Shown here one piece after another: positions 5,267 to 45,373 of a DNA stretch of 64,000 nt. The notes below the pieces were generated by a model. That model made no database searches. It was not told the origin of the DNA and saw only the letters and a program-made list of their open reading frames with translations. The translations under genes were made by a program, and so were the position numbers. Within the stretch, counting starts at the first letter, position 1, and every line of letters begins with the position of its first letter. The DNA comes from Pelagibacteraceae bacterium AG-349-L17 (GTDB taxonomy: Bacteria > Pseudomonadota > Alphaproteobacteria > Pelagibacterales > Pelagibacteraceae), in NCBI GenBank assembly GCA_003278805.1, contig QCDC01000007.1:1-64000 (forward strand), in the 5' to 3' direction.

Positions 5267-6276
5267 AAATTTCTTGATAAACTAAATGATGTTAATCTTT
5301 TAAGAATATTTTTTTCTTCAGAATCTTTAAATACACTTAGAGAATTTGAGGCTAAATTTATATAGTGCTGTGCTTTTTGATAGCATTCCTGAATTATTTT
5401 ATACTTATTTATAAGAGCAATAATTTCATTAAAGTTATCTTTTGTTCTTAATTCTTTTTTAAACATATTTGATAAAATTTTCTTTTCATCATTTCCTAAT
5501 TTTTGAAAAAGTAAAATTATTGGTAAGGTAATTTTTCCTTCAAAAAAATCTTGTCCAATTTTTTTACCAAATAGTTTGAGCTCAGCATTATAGTCTAGTG
5601 TGTCGTCAGCTATTTGAAAAGTTAATCCCAAGTTTCTTCCATAAAATTCTAAAGCATCTTTTTCTTTATTTTCTGCATCTGATAAAATTGCACCAACTTT
5701 AGTTGCCGCTGCAAATAACTCAGCAGTTTTAGCTGAGATTATCTTTAAATATGTTTCTTCCAGCATATCAACTTCACCTTTGTGTTGAAGTTGCAAAACT
5801 TCTCCTTGAGCAATTTTAGATGAAGTGGAAGATAATAACTTTAAAACTTCTAAATTTCCGTCTTCTACCATCATTTCAAAACATCTACTCAATAGATAAT
5901 CTCCTATTAAAACTGAAGAATGATTATCCCAAACTTTATTTAAAGTTTCTTTTCCTCTTCTAACAGTGCCTTCATCGATTACGTCATCATGCATCAACGT
6001 TGCACTGTGAATTAATTCAACACACGCAGCTAAATTTATATCTCTAGAGCCTTTAGAGTAACCGCATAATTTTGCACTACCCAATGTTAGTAAAGCTCTT
6101 AGTCTTTTTCCTCCAGTTTCTATGTGATAATCTGTCATTTTTTGAACTAGCTGTACGTCACTAGATAATTTTGATTTTATTTTTTCTTCGGTTAAAACAA
6201 GTTTTTCTTCAACTGAGTCTTTGAGCTGAAAATATGAATTATTTATCTGATTTTTAAGCTGGACAACTGTTCCCAT
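5263..6276 (-). CDS. ispB: Long-chain polyprenyl (octaprenyl/decaprenyl) diphosphate synthase
   Basis: GGKRLRALLTLGSAKLCGY, LIHSATLMHDDVIDEGTVRRG, FQIADDTLDY. Confidence 0.88.
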   Translation of the reverse strand: MGTVVQLKNQINNSYFQLKDSVEEKLVLTEEKIKSKLSSDVQLVQKMTDYHIETGGKRLRALLTLGSAKLCGYSKGSRDINLAACVELIHSATLMHDDVIDEGTVRRGKETLNKVWDNHSSVLIGDYLLSRCFEMMVEDGNLEVLKLLSSTSSKIAQGEVLQLQHKGEVDMLEETYLKIISAKTAELFAAATKVGAILSDAENKEKDALEFYGRNLGLTFQIADDTLDYNAELKLFGKKIGQDFFEGKITLPIILLFQKLGNDEKKILSNMFKKELRTKDNFNEIIALINKYKIIQECYQKAQHYINLASNSLSVFKDSEEKNILKRLTSFSLSRNF

Positions 6277-6390: not shown

Positions 6391-7197
6391 ATGTTCTCTT
6401 TTTTTAAAAAGAAAAAAATTGTTGCTCACTTAAAATTAATTGGAGTTATTGGTAATGCTGGAAAATTTAAACAAGGTATTGATTTTGCAGGTCAAGAACA
6501 ACTAATTAAAAAAGCTTTTTCTCTGAAAAAAGCAACATGTGTTGCTATATCAATCAATTCTCCAGGAGGATCACCAGTTCAATCTCATTTAATCTACAGT
6601 TTTATTAGACAACAAGCAAAAAAACACAAAAAAAAAGTTATTGTATTCGCTGAAGACGTAGCAGCTTCTGGAGGTTATTTGATTTCTTGTGCTGGGGACG
6701 AAATTTATGCAAATTCAAGTTCAATAATTGGATCTATAGGAGTGATATATTCTTCTTTTGGATTTACTGAGTTGATAAAAAAAATTGGGGTTGAAAGAAG
6801 AGTTCATACCGCTGGTAAAAACAAAAGTACACTTGATCCATTTTTAGAGGAAAAAAACGAGGATATTGAAAGATTAAAAAATATTCAATTGGATCTTCAT
6901 AAGGACTTTATAGAAGTTGTTGAAAAAAGCAGAGGATCAAAATTAAACAAATCTGATGTAGAACTTTTTTCAGGTGAGTTTTGGTCAGGCAGTAAAGCAA
7001 AAAATTTAGGATTGATTGATGGAATAGGTAATGCACACGAAATATTAAAAGATAAATTTGGTGAAGATGTAATTATTAAAAAATTTGAAAAATCAAAAGG
7101 ATGGTTAAGTCAAAAACTTTCTTCATCCAGCAATCAAGTAGATCAAATAGCAAGTATTTTAGATGAAAGATCAATTTGGCAAAGATATGGCTTTTAA
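6391..7197 (+). CDS. S49-family serine peptidase (SppA/SohB-like)
   Basis: [58 protein letters not shown]. Confidence 0.88.
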
Positions 7198-12808: not shown

Positions 12809-12821
12809 GTTCTGTTGCCAG
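12809..12821. repeat. Distal copy of GTTCTGTTGCCAG (matches 16024-16036 within the tmRNA coding-piece 3' end); putative att remnant
   Basis: 13-nt perfect match read directly at both positions. Confidence 0.55.
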
Positions 12822-12911
12822 ATATTATTATCATTATTTGATCATTCATTTTTGATTGCTATTTGTAAGTAATTAAAATTTAAAAACTTTGAGAGAAATT
12901 TCGTAATAAAA

Positions 12912-13496
12912 TTGGCAAGATTTATGCTAAGATCGTTCTTTATGAGAAAAACTTTACAGCAAGACAAAAAATTTACTTTAATCTCTCTAAAAACGGGAGA
13001 TTTAAATAAGAAACAAATATTATCTATATGCAAACTAAAAAATTTATACTGGTCTTGGACAATTCCGAAACAATTTGAATGGTATAAAAAAACAGTAAAA
13101 AAAACAGATATTAATAATATGTTGCTAATTGAAAAAAAATTAGTTGGTTACACTTTGTTAAGAAAAAGAAAAGCATTCGAAAATAGTAAATCTTTTATTT
13201 ACTATTATTTTGACAGTTTTATTTTACACAAAAAGTTTAGAAACAAAGGTTTAGGAAAAATTTTAATATTATTTAATAATAAAGTTTTAAATAAGCTTAA
13301 ACCACATTCTTTTTTGACTTGCTCAAAAAAAACGGTTCCTTTTTATTTGAAATATAATTGGAAAATACTACCAAAAAATAAGTTTAAGATAATGGATCAC
13401 AAACCTGCTTGGTTCAATAGCATGACTAGTATAAATGGGATGACATACAATTTAGATAAAAAAATTAAGAAAAAAATATTCTATTATTTTAATTAA
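12912..13496 (+). CDS. GNAT-family N-acetyltransferase
   Basis: FILHKKFRNKGLGKILILFNNKVL resembles the GNAT acetyl-CoA-binding motif (R-x-x-G-x-G/A). Confidence 0.6.
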   Translation: MARFMLRSFFMRKTLQQDKKFTLISLKTGDLNKKQILSICKLKNLYWSWTIPKQFEWYKKTVKKTDINNMLLIEKKLVGYTLLRKRKAFENSKSFIYYYFDSFILHKKFRNKGLGKILILFNNKVLNKLKPHSFLTCSKKTVPFYLKYNWKILPKNKFKIMDHKPAWFNSMTSINGMTYNLDKKIKKKIFYYFN

Positions 13497-13509
13497 AATA
13501 CTTCATTTT

Positions 13510-13528
13510 AAAAAAAAAAGGGGGGGGG
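13510..13528. repeat. A10G9 homopolymer tract
   Basis: aaaaaaaaaaggggggggg read directly. Confidence 0.9.
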
Positions 13529-13536
13529 TCTGTTAC

Positions 13537-13671
13537 ATGTCATTAGATAAGAAAATGGAATTTTTGCTTACTTATCAAAACTACTTTGTTGTCAACTTAG
13601 TTGTAAGAATGATTTATTCTTTTTTGGTTGGATTTTTAATTTTACACTTTGCTCTAAATCTTTATATATAG
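13537..13671 (+). CDS. Candidate 44-aa single-pass membrane microprotein
   Basis: Not in ORF track; MSLDKKMEFLLTYQNYFVVNLVVRMIYSFLVGFLILHFALNLYI*, hydrophobic C-terminal half, stop 5 nt before the next ATG (13677). Confidence 0.4.
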   Translation: MSLDKKMEFLLTYQNYFVVNLVVRMIYSFLVGFLILHFALNLYI

Positions 13672-13676
13672 CATTT

Positions 13677-14543
13677 ATGAAAAAAACAAACGCTTTCCAA
13701 TTTTTTAATAAAGACACTTCAGTTAAACACTATTCTGATATGTATAAAGAATTAAGATTAGATATTAGATATCCTGCCAATGTAAAAAGAGAGCAGATTT
13801 TTGTAAAACTTTTACAAAAACATAAATCTAAAAAAATTGTAGACGCTGGTTGTGGTACTGGAATGCCACTTATTGATATTAAAAAAAAAGGTTTTAATAT
13901 CATAGGTTATGATAAAGCAAGAAATATGGTTTCTGAGGCAAAAGAAAATCTTATCAAAAATAGATTATCCCCTGATTTAGTATTTTATGATGATTTTGAA
14001 AATCCAAAAAAAATTAAAAATAATTCAGTAGATTGTATACTTGGTATGGGGGCTTTTTATTATGCTAAAGATGTTAATAAAACTCTTTTAAAACAGAAAA
14101 GAAAATTAAAAAAAAATGGTAGATTAATTTTTTCATTAAGAAATAGGCTATTTGATGTTATTACATTAAATAATTATACTAAAAATTTCTTAGATGAAAT
14201 TTATGAAGTTAAAAAGTTAAAAAAAGAATGGAAAAATAAATATAAAGATTTAACAAAAAACTTTACCGATAGAAAAAAAATAAAGTCAAAAATAAATATA
14301 GATGAAGCAGGTGTTTATAACCACACACCTCACAATCCCTTGACCGTAACAGATGAAATGGCAAAATTAGGTTTATCTGTTGAGGGTATATATTTTTATC
14401 ACTTCCATGCATTTCCACCAGTATTTGATGCATTTGATCCATATTATTATAGAAAAAATTCCTGGAAAATAGAAAACCCATCAGATTGGCGAGGTTATTT
14501 CTTAGCATCTGCTTTTGTAATTGATTGTAAAAAAATTTTTTAA
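13677..14543 (+). CDS. SAM-dependent class I methyltransferase
   Basis: KKIVDAGCGTGMPLIDIKKKGFNIIGYDKARNMV (motif I), NSVDCILGMGAFYYAKD, LKKNGRLIFSLRN. Confidence 0.85.
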   Translation: MKKTNAFQFFNKDTSVKHYSDMYKELRLDIRYPANVKREQIFVKLLQKHKSKKIVDAGCGTGMPLIDIKKKGFNIIGYDKARNMVSEAKENLIKNRLSPDLVFYDDFENPKKIKNNSVDCILGMGAFYYAKDVNKTLLKQKRKLKKNGRLIFSLRNRLFDVITLNNYTKNFLDEIYEVKKLKKEWKNKYKDLTKNFTDRKKIKSKINIDEAGVYNHTPHNPLTVTDEMAKLGLSVEGIYFYHFHAFPPVFDAFDPYYYRKNSWKIENPSDWRGYFLASAFVIDCKKIF

Positions 14544-14557
14544 ATAACTTTTTTCTA

Positions 14558-14577
14558 GGGGCGTTCTAATTCCCCCT
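14558..14577. repeat. GGGGCGTTCT (10-nt match to 16019-16028) in a short GGGG...CCCC inverted repeat; putative att remnant or terminator
   Basis: aggggcgttctaattccccct read directly. Confidence 0.4.
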
Positions 14578-14619
14578 ATAATTTAAATACTAACAGAAAA
14601 TAAAGACTTTTTGAAACAC

Positions 14620-14686
14620 TTCAATGTATTCTTCAATGTAAGTTAGGCGTATTTGGCGGGAACCTTGTTTCTCGACTTCATTGTAA
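14620..14686. repeat. TTCAATGTA-type short repeats (14620-14628, 14632-14640, variant TTCATTGTA 14677-14685)
   Basis: Direct reading; first two copies spaced 12 bp. Confidence 0.7.
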
Positions 14687-14706
14687 ATCAGAGTTAAATT
14701 TAATCC

Positions 14707-15213
14707 ATGAGTAAACAAAAAAGAGTTAAAACTAACAAAAATGCTAGGGGAAACTCTGCACAATTTTTTGTTGCTGGTGAGTTATGTAGGAGAGAATTAG
14801 TTGCTGTTGTTACTATGGGTAACACACCTAACACTGATGTATTATGTAGTAATATTGAGGGAACCAAGTTCGTTCACATTCAAGTAAAAACTTTTCCACC
14901 AGGAAATAGAAAAGTTACTGTTGGTATGAAAGCAGAAAAAGATTTTGGAAAAAACTTCATTTGGGTATTGGCAGGAATACCAACTAAAGGAGATAAAAGT
15001 GAATTTGTATATTATATAATTCCATCAAGTGAGGTCTCCAAAAATGTTAAAAGAATGCATTTAGATTACATATCTAAACCAGGAAAAAAAGGTCAACAAA
15101 GAAAAGACTCTAGTATGAGAATTATTTTCATACCACCGTATAAAGATCCATCTGGTTGGTCGATTGAGAGGTATAAAAATAGATGGGATATAATTGAAGA
15201 TTTGTTAAAATAA
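14707..15213 (+). CDS. PD-(D/E)XK nuclease-fold-like protein of unknown function
   Basis: GNSAQFFVAGELCRRELVAVVTMGNTPNTDVLCSNIEGTKFVHIQVKTF: E...TDVL...IQVKT arrangement typical of PD-(D/E)XK proteins. Confidence 0.6.
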   Translation: MSKQKRVKTNKNARGNSAQFFVAGELCRRELVAVVTMGNTPNTDVLCSNIEGTKFVHIQVKTFPPGNRKVTVGMKAEKDFGKNFIWVLAGIPTKGDKSEFVYYIIPSSEVSKNVKRMHLDYISKPGKKGQQRKDSSMRIIFIPPYKDPSGWSIERYKNRWDIIEDLLK

Positions 15214-15214
15214 A

Positions 15215-15242
15215 CGTTATAGACGCATCTGCGCGTATAACG
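15215..15242. terminator. Imperfect hairpin between convergent ORFs, candidate bidirectional terminator
   Basis: CGTTATA gacgc atct gcgcg TATAACG. Confidence 0.45.
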
Positions 15243-15254
15243 GTTTAAATTTAA

Positions 15255-15587
15255 TTAATCGCTATTCCAAGTAAATAAATCTGCATCAAAGGGTATGTTT
15301 CTAAATTTAAGTAGGATTTTATATTTTTCTAATCTTTCCTCTTTCTTAAATTTTCCTAAGTAGTTAAGTATTTGGTCATAAGTTAAATCTTTTAAGTATT
15401 TCTTTTTGACATCAACATACTCTTCATAATCCATACCACATATAGAAAATTTTTTTTTTGGATCTATATGTTCAGCATAACTTATCCCATCTTCACTTTC
15501 GCTTAGTACATCATAAAAGTGAGCGATTTGATTATCTTTTTCAAAAAGAATATCTCTCCTGAAATCAAATAGTTCTAGTTGTTGCAT
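15255..15587 (-). CDS. Orphan protein of unknown function (110 aa)
   Basis: ORF MQQLELFDFRRDILFEKDNQIAHFYDVLSESEDG..., no recognised family. Confidence 0.55.
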   Translation of the reverse strand: MQQLELFDFRRDILFEKDNQIAHFYDVLSESEDGISYAEHIDPKKKFSICGMDYEEYVDVKKKYLKDLTYDQILNYLGKFKKEERLEKYKILLKFRNIPFDADLFTWNSD

Positions 15588-15743
15588 AGTTTGGAGTTAT
15601 TAAAGTTTTGAAAATTAACTTTAACAATTCAATTTTACTAAATAATAATGGCAAAATTTTGTATATTTGTTATTATTAATTCAGTCTTGATTTAGAAAAA
15701 ACTCTACTTGCTAGGACTTTAAACAAAACGCTAAAGGAGGCAT

Positions 15744-15917
15744 ATGAAACTTAAAATACAATCTATAAAAGACTATTTTAAATCAAAAAAAGATAGAGGT
15801 TTAAAACCAATATTTTTTAAAAAAATAGGTGACCGAAAAACATCTAGGGACCAAATGTTAATTAATTTGATTAAAATATTAGAGTCTCAAGGATTTAAGA
15901 TAAAAAATAAGAAGTAA
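15744..15917 (+). CDS. Candidate 57-aa basic small protein
   Basis: Not in ORF track; MKLKIQSIKDYFKSKKDRGLKPIFFKKIGDRKTSRDQMLINLIKILESQGFKIKNKK*, preceded by consensus Shine-Dalgarno AAAGGAGG. Confidence 0.6.
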   Translation: MKLKIQSIKDYFKSKKDRGLKPIFFKKIGDRKTSRDQMLINLIKILESQGFKIKNKK

Positions 15918-15923
15918 AACTTA

Positions 15924-16008
15924 TTTCCGTTGTTTTCAGACTTCATTGTAACTTCAATGTAAACTTCAATGTAAATTCCTTTTGGAAAATAACTGAGGAC
16001 AACGGAAA
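15924..16008. repeat. 16-nt inverted repeat (TTTCCGTTGTTTTCAG / CTGAGGACAACGGAAA) enclosing TTCAWTGTA repeats
   Basis: Arms 15924-15939 and 15993-16008; fully paired in + strand RNA allowing two G-U pairs. Confidence 0.75.
15942..15973. repeat. TTCAWTGTA short tandem repeats (15942-15950 variant, 15953-15961, 15965-15973)
   Basis: Direct reading; starts spaced 11 and 12 bp. Confidence 0.75.
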
Positions 16009-16018
16009 CCTTTGGAAA

Positions 16019-16262
16019 GGGGCGTTCTGTTGCCAGGTGCCCCATACCCCGTTTGCTTAATTAACTAAGTTAATTAGGCAGCAAGTGCATAACTTTCGTT
16101 AGCAATTATAAATTAGCCCGTTACGGTGGAACAATCCCGAACGAAAGAATAGCCTTTAGTCACCCGTCGATTCTATTTCACCCCCATAAGTTGTAATGGT
16201 GGAGGTGGTGGGTACTGCCCCCACGTCCGCAATGGTTATTACGAAATTCGTTTATCGTCGTA
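16019..16262 (-). ncRNA. ssrA: tmRNA, circularly permuted two-piece type (alphaproteobacterial form)
   Basis: Minus strand: acceptor piece ...GCGGACGTGGGGGCAGTACCCACCACCTCCACCA (16262->16197), 11-nt spacer TTACAACTTAT, coding piece GGGGGTGAAATAGAATCGACGGG... (from 16185). Acceptor stem GGGGGUG/CACCUCC with G3-U pair; tag ORF GCTAACGAAAGTTATGCACTTGCTGCCTAA (16103->16074) = ANESYALAA*. Outer limits approximate. Confidence 0.93.
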
Positions 16263-16318
16263 GTTGGAAAACCAACATTATTAATATAAAAGTAATTACA
16301 ACAGATTCAATAACAATC

Positions 16319-17266
16319 ATGAAATTAACCAAAGAACAACAAGATGAAATAAAGAATCAACAATCTCAAAGCAATCAAACAAAAAGAGTTACTGCTTCTG
16401 AGCTTGAAAAAATCCTATATGAAGCAATTCCAGCTTTAGATCATGGCTTTGTAAGAGTTGTTGATTATATGGGCGATGACACATCCATAGTTCAATCAGC
16501 CAGAGTATCGTACGGAAAAGGGACCAAACAAGTATCAACTGACAAAGGTTTAATAAAATATTTGATGAGGCATTGGCACAGTACTCCATTTGAAATGTGT
16601 GAAATTAAATATCATGTTAAACTTCCAATATTTATTGCAAGACAATGGATTAGGCATAGAACTGCAAATGTTAATGAATACTCTGCAAGATATTCAATTT
16701 TAGATAAAGAATTTTATTTGCCATCACAAGAAAATTTAGCTGCTCAATCAACTAGTAACCGACAGGGTAGGGGAGATGTCTTGCAAGGAAAACAGGCAGA
16801 GGAAGTTTTGGAAATTTTAAAAAGTGATGCAGAAAGAACTTATGATAATTATGAGACTATGCTAAATGAAAGATTTGATGGATCAACTATTGATGAAAAT
16901 AAAAAAGGTTTAGCAAGAGAACTGGCAAGAATGAATTTAACACTAAATACTTACACCCAATGGTATTGGAAAACTGATTTATTAAACTTAATGAATTTTT
17001 TAAGATTAAGAGCTGATAGTCATGCTCAATATGAAATAAGAGTTTATGCAGACATAATGCTGGATACTGTAAAAAAATGGGTGCCTATAACTTATGATGC
17101 TTTTATGGATTATAGAGTTGGTGGCACTGAGGTTTCTGCAAAAGGAAAATTAATTGTTCAAAAACTTATTAAAGGTGAGAATGTAGATGTTGAAAGTTCT
17201 GGCCTGTCTAAAAGAGAGTGGAATGAATTAATGACTGCTTTTGATCTTAAAGATAAGTTGATTTAA
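16319..17266 (+). CDS. thyX: Flavin-dependent thymidylate synthase (start re-assigned to ATG 16319)
   Basis: ThyX motif [15 protein letters not shown]; the track ORF start at 16196 overlaps the tmRNA and is probably not real. Confidence 0.95.
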
Positions 17267-44681: not shown

Positions 44682-44723
44682 TTACCCTCTGATATGATGT
44701 ATCAGATAGTCCTTCTTAGCCAT
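44682..44723 (-). CDS. Candidate 13-aa leader peptide MAKKDYLIHHIRG
   Basis: Minus strand GGGAGctaaagATGGCTAAGAAGGACTATCTGATACATCATATCAGAGGGTAA, with SD-like GGGAG. Confidence 0.3.
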   Translation of the reverse strand: MAKKDYLIHHIRG

Positions 44724-44757
44724 CTTTAGCTCCCGGTTTTTAAGGACTATCTTTTTT
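44704..44757 (+). promoter_or_regulatory. Terminator-like stem-loop ending in a U-tract immediately before the LysE-family start codon (candidate attenuator)
   Basis: AGATAGTCCTT ... AAGGACTATCT TTTTTT (11-bp perfect stem) directly before ATG 44759; preceded by hairpin CTGATAtgatgTATCAG. Confidence 0.55.
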
Positions 44758-44758
44758 T

Positions 44759-45373
44759 ATGCTCCCCTTAGATTTCATCCTTTATCTGCAGATAATAATT
44801 TTTCTATTCATTACACCAGGAACTCCTAGAGTTGTGATTATCTCGTATTCAATGAATTATGGAGTTGGAAAATGTGTCTGGTCAGCATTAGGGGATGTAA
44901 CAGCAAATTTTATTCAAGCAACTTTAGTAATTTTTGTAATAGGATCTTTTTTTTCTGAGAACTCAACAATATTAAATGTATTTAAATGGATAGGAATAAT
45001 TTATATTTTATATCTTGCTTATGATATTTATAAATCACGTCCAAAAACTATTTCAAGTGAAGGTGAAATAAAAAAAAGTAACTTGTCTTTCTTTCGAGAC
45101 GGTTTCTTGGTTGCCGGAACAAGTCCAAAAGCTTGGATGTTTTTTCCTTTTATATTTCCACAATTTATTGACTTTAATTCGAATTTATTGGCACAATTTG
45201 TAATTTTAATAACAACATACATCGTTTTAGATTTTTTATCTTTGATTGGTTACGCAATGCTTGCACAGAAGTTAATTAAGTGGATTACTGCAAATCCAAA
45301 AACAATTAATACAATTTCTGCGAGTGTTTTAGTAATTATTGCTGGAATAATTGTCATAACTCAACAATATTAA
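44759..45373 (+). CDS. LysE-family amino-acid exporter
   Basis: Polytopic; FLFITPGTPRVVIISYSMNYGVGKCVWSALGDVTAN, FLVAGTSPKAWMFF. Confidence 0.85.
   Translation: MLPLDFILYLQIIIFLFITPGTPRVVIISYSMNYGVGKCVWSALGDVTANFIQATLVIFVIGSFFSENSTILNVFKWIGIIYILYLAYDIYKSRPKTISSEGEIKKSNLSFFRDGFLVAGTSPKAWMFFPFIFPQFIDFNSNLLAQFVILITTYIVLDFLSLIGYAMLAQKLIKWITANPKTINTISASVLVIIAGIIVITQQY

Follow-up and report, generated by a model that had tools for sequence, protein, structure and literature searches.

The window analysed here is a stretch of 64,000 nucleotides (positions 1 to 64,000 of contig QCDC01000007.1) from Pelagibacteraceae bacterium AG-349-L17, an ocean bacterium of the SAR11 group. Between the core genes ppdK and thyX it holds an accessory segment that ends at the gene for transfer-messenger RNA (tmRNA, ssrA). 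This tmRNA is of the permuted, two-piece alphaproteobacterial type and occupies 16016-16314 on the minus strand (Rfam RF01849, E value 7e-65, and ARAGORN); the permuted tmRNA model also matches at 16314-16016 on that strand. The original prediction, made from the sequence alone, was that repeats of the 3' end of the tmRNA coding piece bound this segment. They do: the 13-mer GTTCTGTTGCCAG is exact at 12809-12821 and at 16024-16036. Since the tmRNA lies on the minus strand, what is repeated is the hairpin at the 3' end of its coding piece, which is the putative attachment site. The full core is AGGGGC-GTTCTGTTGCCAG-GTGCCCC. Its intact copy (AGGGGCGTTCTGTTGCCAGGTGCCCC, 16018-16043, plus strand) is joined to the tmRNA and folds at -13 kcal/mol when read on the tmRNA strand. 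The outermost copy (12809-12821, plus strand) has decayed flanks and lies 15 bp after ppdK, and in the empty site of a relative (L089) the same 13-mer stands 22 bp after ppdK. As in tmRNA islands, a direct repeat of the 3' end of an RNA gene is present at both borders of the segment. The 13-mer is rare: across all 1.22 Mb of the genome it is found only at 12809 and 16024, even when one mismatch is allowed. The open reading frames lie where they were predicted, and the segment does lack an integrase. It must be noted that the thyX reading frame stays open back into the tmRNA gene (16196-16320), an annotation trap that is also present in relatives.

The element next to the tmRNA, E3, is complete and has both ends intact (14558 to about 16024-16031). 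Its left end (14557-14700, plus strand) begins with the core AGGGGCGTTCTAATTCCCCCTATAATTT. Two arm-type sites, CTTCAATGTA, follow 12 bp apart at 14619-14640, and a third, CTTCATTGTA, is at 14676-14685. The right end has CTTCATTGTA, CTTCAATGTA and CTTCAATGTA at 15941-15973, with spacings of 11 and 12 bp; all of these are on the plus strand, and the intact core hairpin closes the element. A core with arm-type direct repeats at both ends is what defines lambda-type attachment sites, and E3 has it while E1, the outermost element, does not. The same two ends surround different cargo at the prx/rnhA site of L211. They also occur without cargo at the fabI/pnp site of L135, where a 139-bp element (5305-5443) is made up of nothing but both ends of an E3-type cassette. 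The left end is identical to those of L211 and L135 over the core, bar two bases, and onward to the second arm site. The right end recurs in L209, with DNA methyltransferase cargo at the tmRNA site, and in L138. Across these loci the identity begins at the left core and ends after GGGGCGTTCTGTT at the right. The sequence GGGGCGTTCT, at 14558-14567 and 16019-16028, had been taken as a third partial copy of the tmRNA end. Its position is correct, but it is not a broken tmRNA copy. It is the native left end of E3, of the GGGGCGTTCTGTTTCCCCC type.

The cargo of E3 consists of short genes. A protein of 168 amino acids (14707-15213, plus strand) has a nuclease-like DVL...HIQVK motif. Its predicted PD-(D/E)XK fold could not be confirmed: there is no Pfam or NCBIfam match and only a weak one to phrog_29029, the AlphaFold model has a predicted local distance difference test score of 45, and a sequence search of solved structures gave nothing useful. 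Close relatives (88-90%) are found in 2 of the 299 other genus genomes, one at prx (L401) and one at the tmRNA (L402), so the same cargo gene is found at two sites. An orphan of 110 amino acids (15255-15587, minus strand) has copies 89-94% identical adjoining core sites in 6 other loci, against only 56% identity for the thyX beside the array in one of the relatives (L091). The remaining orphan, of 57 amino acids (15744-15917, plus strand), is 83-89% identical in cassettes at other loci.

The division of the segment into modules holds, but there are at least three elements and not two. A decayed left end lies at 13520-13640 (plus strand), within what had been called the first module. It consists of GGGGGGGTCTGTTACATGTCATTAGATAAGAAAA followed by the arm-like sites ACTTTGTTGT (13583) and ACTTAGTTGT (13595), and it aligns with intact ends of the form AGGGGCGTTCTGTTGCC[CT]GGCA... 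in L034, L044, L165 and L219. Therefore the first module divides into E1 (about 12809-13522), with a GNAT-like reading frame at 12912-13496, and E2 (about 13522-14558), with a reading frame for an S-adenosylmethionine (SAM)-dependent methyltransferase at 13677-14543. The methyltransferase assignment is clear (Methyltransf_31, 5e-13), and its match to PADLOC mad2 is limited to the SAM domain. The GNAT assignment is borderline (21.2 bits against a Pfam cut-off of 20.7), and in another genus the 3' end of a GNAT gene 84-85% identical to it lies at the tmRNA (L005). None of the window's own cargo genes has a confident defence match. Decay in the window rises with distance from the tmRNA: E3 is intact, the left end of E2 is decayed and E1 keeps the 13-mer alone of its left core. 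Such a gradient is expected if new insertions always enter beside the tmRNA, as we propose below. The predicted succession of insertions thus stands, with the number raised to at least three.

On the sequences compared, the cassette system is widespread in the Pelagibacteraceae. The 13-mer is present in 219 of 297 family genomes at up to 7 copies, often as arrays of direct repeats, while the reversed 13-mer, used as a control, always gives zero. Within the same genus, 46 of 101 genomes have at least two copies, which in many cases are direct repeats separated by 0.3-4 kb. Arrays outside the order were looked for in a class-wide sample of 190 genomes and not found: 17 of these, one being the source genome (G000), have a 17-mer, each time as a single copy. 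The titled loci are mostly Pelagibacteraceae. Since many of them come from single-cell genomes, metagenome binning does not account for the arrays. Among 188 loci examined, 151 are at the tmRNA, about 14 are in the prx/rnhA intergenic region, 6 are at fabI/pnp and 17 are elsewhere. Single-copy empty sites had been predicted, and the ppdK-tmRNA site is empty at 11 loci, with one core 17-26 bp after ppdK. Relatives whose ppdK is 91-96% identical have either an empty site (L076, L089) or wholly different cargo (L035, L044), so the same genes are not kept at this locus in all relatives. Cargo can differ even at a ppdK identity of 95-96%. This is the pattern of an additive island, in which a single RNA-gene site with a repeated 3' end has taken up a varying number of insertions. 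As a separate observation, L045 has a second, degenerate and nearly full-length tmRNA copy (6676-6850) at the outer end of its array, which looks like an older tmRNA pushed out of place.

The elements also occupy sites away from the tmRNA, at prx/rnhA and fabI/pnp, and these help to locate the crossover. At prx/rnhA, comparing an empty form (L052) with a filled form (L042) places it within GTTCTGTTGCCAGGTG, and the ends of E3 place it in GGGGCGTTCTGTT. Taken together the crossover lies in about GTTCTGTT. One can imagine a scenario where the cassettes arrived a single time and today are shuffled solely by homologous recombination, through the hairpins, the shared ends and the flanking core genes. 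SAR11 recombine often, many cassettes have similar ends, and the cargo-free element of L135 resembles a deletion between its own arm repeats. However, this scenario has to produce precise insertions at non-tmRNA sites that offer no other homology (L042 versus L052, and also L211 and L135). It must also deal with arms that match within a cassette but differ between cassettes whose ends are otherwise similar. We consider it very unlikely. Directly beside the core hairpins at several sites (L070, L087, L092, L173, L217) there is also a small secreted protein (AGSCPMM... LLNKAL).

The arms were surveyed in 73 cassettes with intact cores, which range from 0.33 to 4.2 kb with a median of 1.25 kb. 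A short direct repeat starting 76-91 bp inside the left core, with a spacing of 10-12 bp (nearly always 11), is present in 32 of them. In 27 of these 32 the 6-mer of the left repeat is also found 57-84 bp inside the cassette's own right core. When right ends are dealt out randomly the mean is 4.3 such matches, and the maximum in 2000 trials is 11. The background of 11-bp-spaced 7-mer repeats elsewhere is 0.025 per kb. The motif varies by cassette (TGTGCC, ATCCCG, GACGAG, TGCGTC, ATTCCG, CTTCAATGTA and others). Between the two ends are 1-5 short cargo genes. Among 108 distinct cargo proteins the matches include type II methyltransferases, DpnI, Mrr, HNH, MrcB_N, DUF805 and DUF1330, as well as the candidate defence families PDC-S02, S11 and S36, and most have no listed family. 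Alternatively, the repeats could be working transcription terminators that selection or chance has multiplied, and not attachment sites at all. The core is a stable hairpin (-13 kcal/mol) and is often found between convergent genes. Yet empty sites, exact boundaries, arm repeats at fixed distances and cargo turnover are all left unexplained by terminators and contradict them, which makes this proposal hardly credible.

If the cassettes have lambda-type ends and no integrase, it is worth considering where an integrase could come from. SAR11 have integrase-bearing elements at the transfer RNA (tRNA) genes for Met and Arg, with arms spaced by 11 bp between the tRNA and the integrase. The tRNA-Met elements L466, L469, L474 and L484 have TTGTGACA-type arm pairs, and the tRNA-Arg element L411 has TCGTCAT pairs at both ends. 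At tRNA-Met in G056 (L410, 9667-16900) a copy of the tRNA-Met 3' end separates an integrase element, which has CTGACACA arms, from an integrase-less cassette that comes after it. This cassette has the same CTGACACA arms, the same layout and the same tRNA-Met core as its neighbour. We regard this tandem as the clearest sequence evidence that such cassettes depend on an integrase in trans. The trans-acting integrase suggested by the original prediction fits the evidence. All SAR11 phage-type integrases examined are at tRNA genes and none is at the tmRNA. In about 200 SAR11 loci no core had an integrase nearby, no core was found at 28 integrase loci, and 9 genomes had no serine recombinase. The cassette ends are absent from IMG/VR and INPHARED.

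Several viral candidates were rejected. Contigs with a 21-mer core (L123-L130) were considered as phage attachment sites, but they are T4-like phages with their own tmRNA. Matches to a 14-mer in viral contigs are due to chance, with the nearby integrases in unrelated contigs rich in G and C, and where the CTTCAATGTA arm pair turns up in viral contigs it is a coincidence within coding sequence. The phage tmRNA of L123-L130 (from IMG/VR) is permuted, lies beside ribonucleotide reductase genes and shares its 21-base 3' end with the SAR11 host.

Another possible recombinase is chromosomal. Nearly all Pelagibacteraceae genomes, including G000, encode one tyrosine recombinase of 317 amino acids (for example L114, 1456-2409; L097-L122), usually where an MGMT-like gene borders on a variable glycosyltransferase (polysaccharide) region. 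NCBIfam calls it XerD-like at 75 bits against a cut-off of 330, a score unlike that of XerC or XerD. The Pelagibacteraceae seem to have kept this one recombinase and to lack XerC/XerD; the sister family encodes a XerC/XerD-like pair. If this protein mobilises the cassettes, the system would be an integron-like host function. Its presence in nearly all array genomes, usually as the sole PF00589 protein, is what this idea predicts. However, the protein is equally present in genomes with empty sites, and its gene is far from the arrays. By its length and sequence the protein lacks a distinct arm-binding domain at the N-terminus, yet the cassettes have arm sites. As the sole Xer-like protein it probably serves in chromosome resolution. 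It is unlikely to be what moves the cassettes.

We argue that the segment is probably a tandem array of at least three integrase-less cassettes, inserted successively at the tmRNA 3' hairpin and moved in trans by a lambda-type tyrosine integrase. What the sequences show supports this: repeats with empty counterparts in relatives, defined element boundaries, turnover of cargo, insertion at several sites, arms that match, and an architecture shared with integrase elements at tRNA genes. Each end would be a core copying the tmRNA 3' hairpin plus, where intact, short arm-type sites at a spacing of about 11 bp. A heterobivalent integrase, probably supplied by a transient phage or island, would bind both arms and core. 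We infer that a circular form of the cassette enters the core nearest the tmRNA and that the tmRNA end is regenerated. Older cassettes would shift outward and then decay, which would set the order of insertion. There are several points against this scenario. No excision or circular form was observed, and no integrase targeting the tmRNA hairpin was found in the genomes, IMG/VR or INPHARED. In 41 of the 73 surveyed cassettes no left repeat passes the test, arm sites are not recognisable in E1, and those of E2 are decayed. The highly variable arm motifs would require many different helpers. The precedent for recombination by a heterobivalent integrase would come, by analogy, only from the sister elements at tRNA genes. 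Apart from the array, the window has an Rfam match to the rhtB small RNA at 44687-44769 (78.8 bits).

Genomic islands integrated at tmRNA/ssrA were reportedly described by Williams in 2003 in 'Traffic at the tmRNA gene'. Integron cassettes share with the array small cargo units, direct-repeat arrays, an integrase in trans and fast cargo turnover. In contrast to integrons, the arrays have no adjacent intI and no attC, and their cassettes are multi-gene with lambda-type arms; by inspection the core forms a hairpin of 25 bp, and arm sites come after it. The tmRNA/ssrA islands (Islander, PMC4383910) also show a duplicated target 3' end, a regenerated gene end and tandem arrays. However, they encode a tyrosine integrase within the element and are usually far larger, while these cassettes encode none. 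The site also differs from that of known tmRNA/ssrA islands, since here a permuted tmRNA is used at its 3' hairpin, which is not tRNA-like. Tycheposons and small phage satellites (PICMI, PMC10803314) are likewise marine, site-specific and cargo-carrying, but they carry recombinase or satellite genes that the cassettes lack. Tycheposons are 4-200 kb, at a tRNA gene and with a tyrosine recombinase, whereas the cassettes are 0.33-4.2 kb, at the tmRNA and without one. The nearest system is the additive island fGI-2 of 'Ca. Methylopumilus' (PMC10872708). Its host is also a streamlined aquatic bacterium and its islands, from 330 bp, hold mostly unknown genes, but it has repeated tRNA-Lys ends in place of the tmRNA. 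The portion of that paper considered here does not report arm-type sites, secondary sites or helper pairing.

A literature search found no description of such cassette arrays in SAR11, which is weak evidence as most subscription papers were outside its coverage. SAR11 cells rank with the most numerous in the ocean, and their genomes are streamlined. To our knowledge those genomes contain almost no recognised mobile elements. We tentatively suggest, as a possibility short of an even chance, that the Pelagibacteraceae share a decentralised integron-like system. Cassettes without an integrase would form a pool common to the whole family, and all would dock at one type of core, found at the tmRNA 3' hairpin and at a few sites that resemble terminators. 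The arms would act as exchangeable addresses, with many transient integrases each moving its own subset, and this could be a main route by which the most abundant bacteria of the ocean acquire genes. Arm sites that vary in step around a fixed core are a natural data set for the evolution of integrase arm specificity and could help to identify pairs of helper and cassette. A recurrent, precisely bounded cassette system would explain how accessory genes come and go in SAR11, among them genes for restriction-modification and candidate genes for defence.

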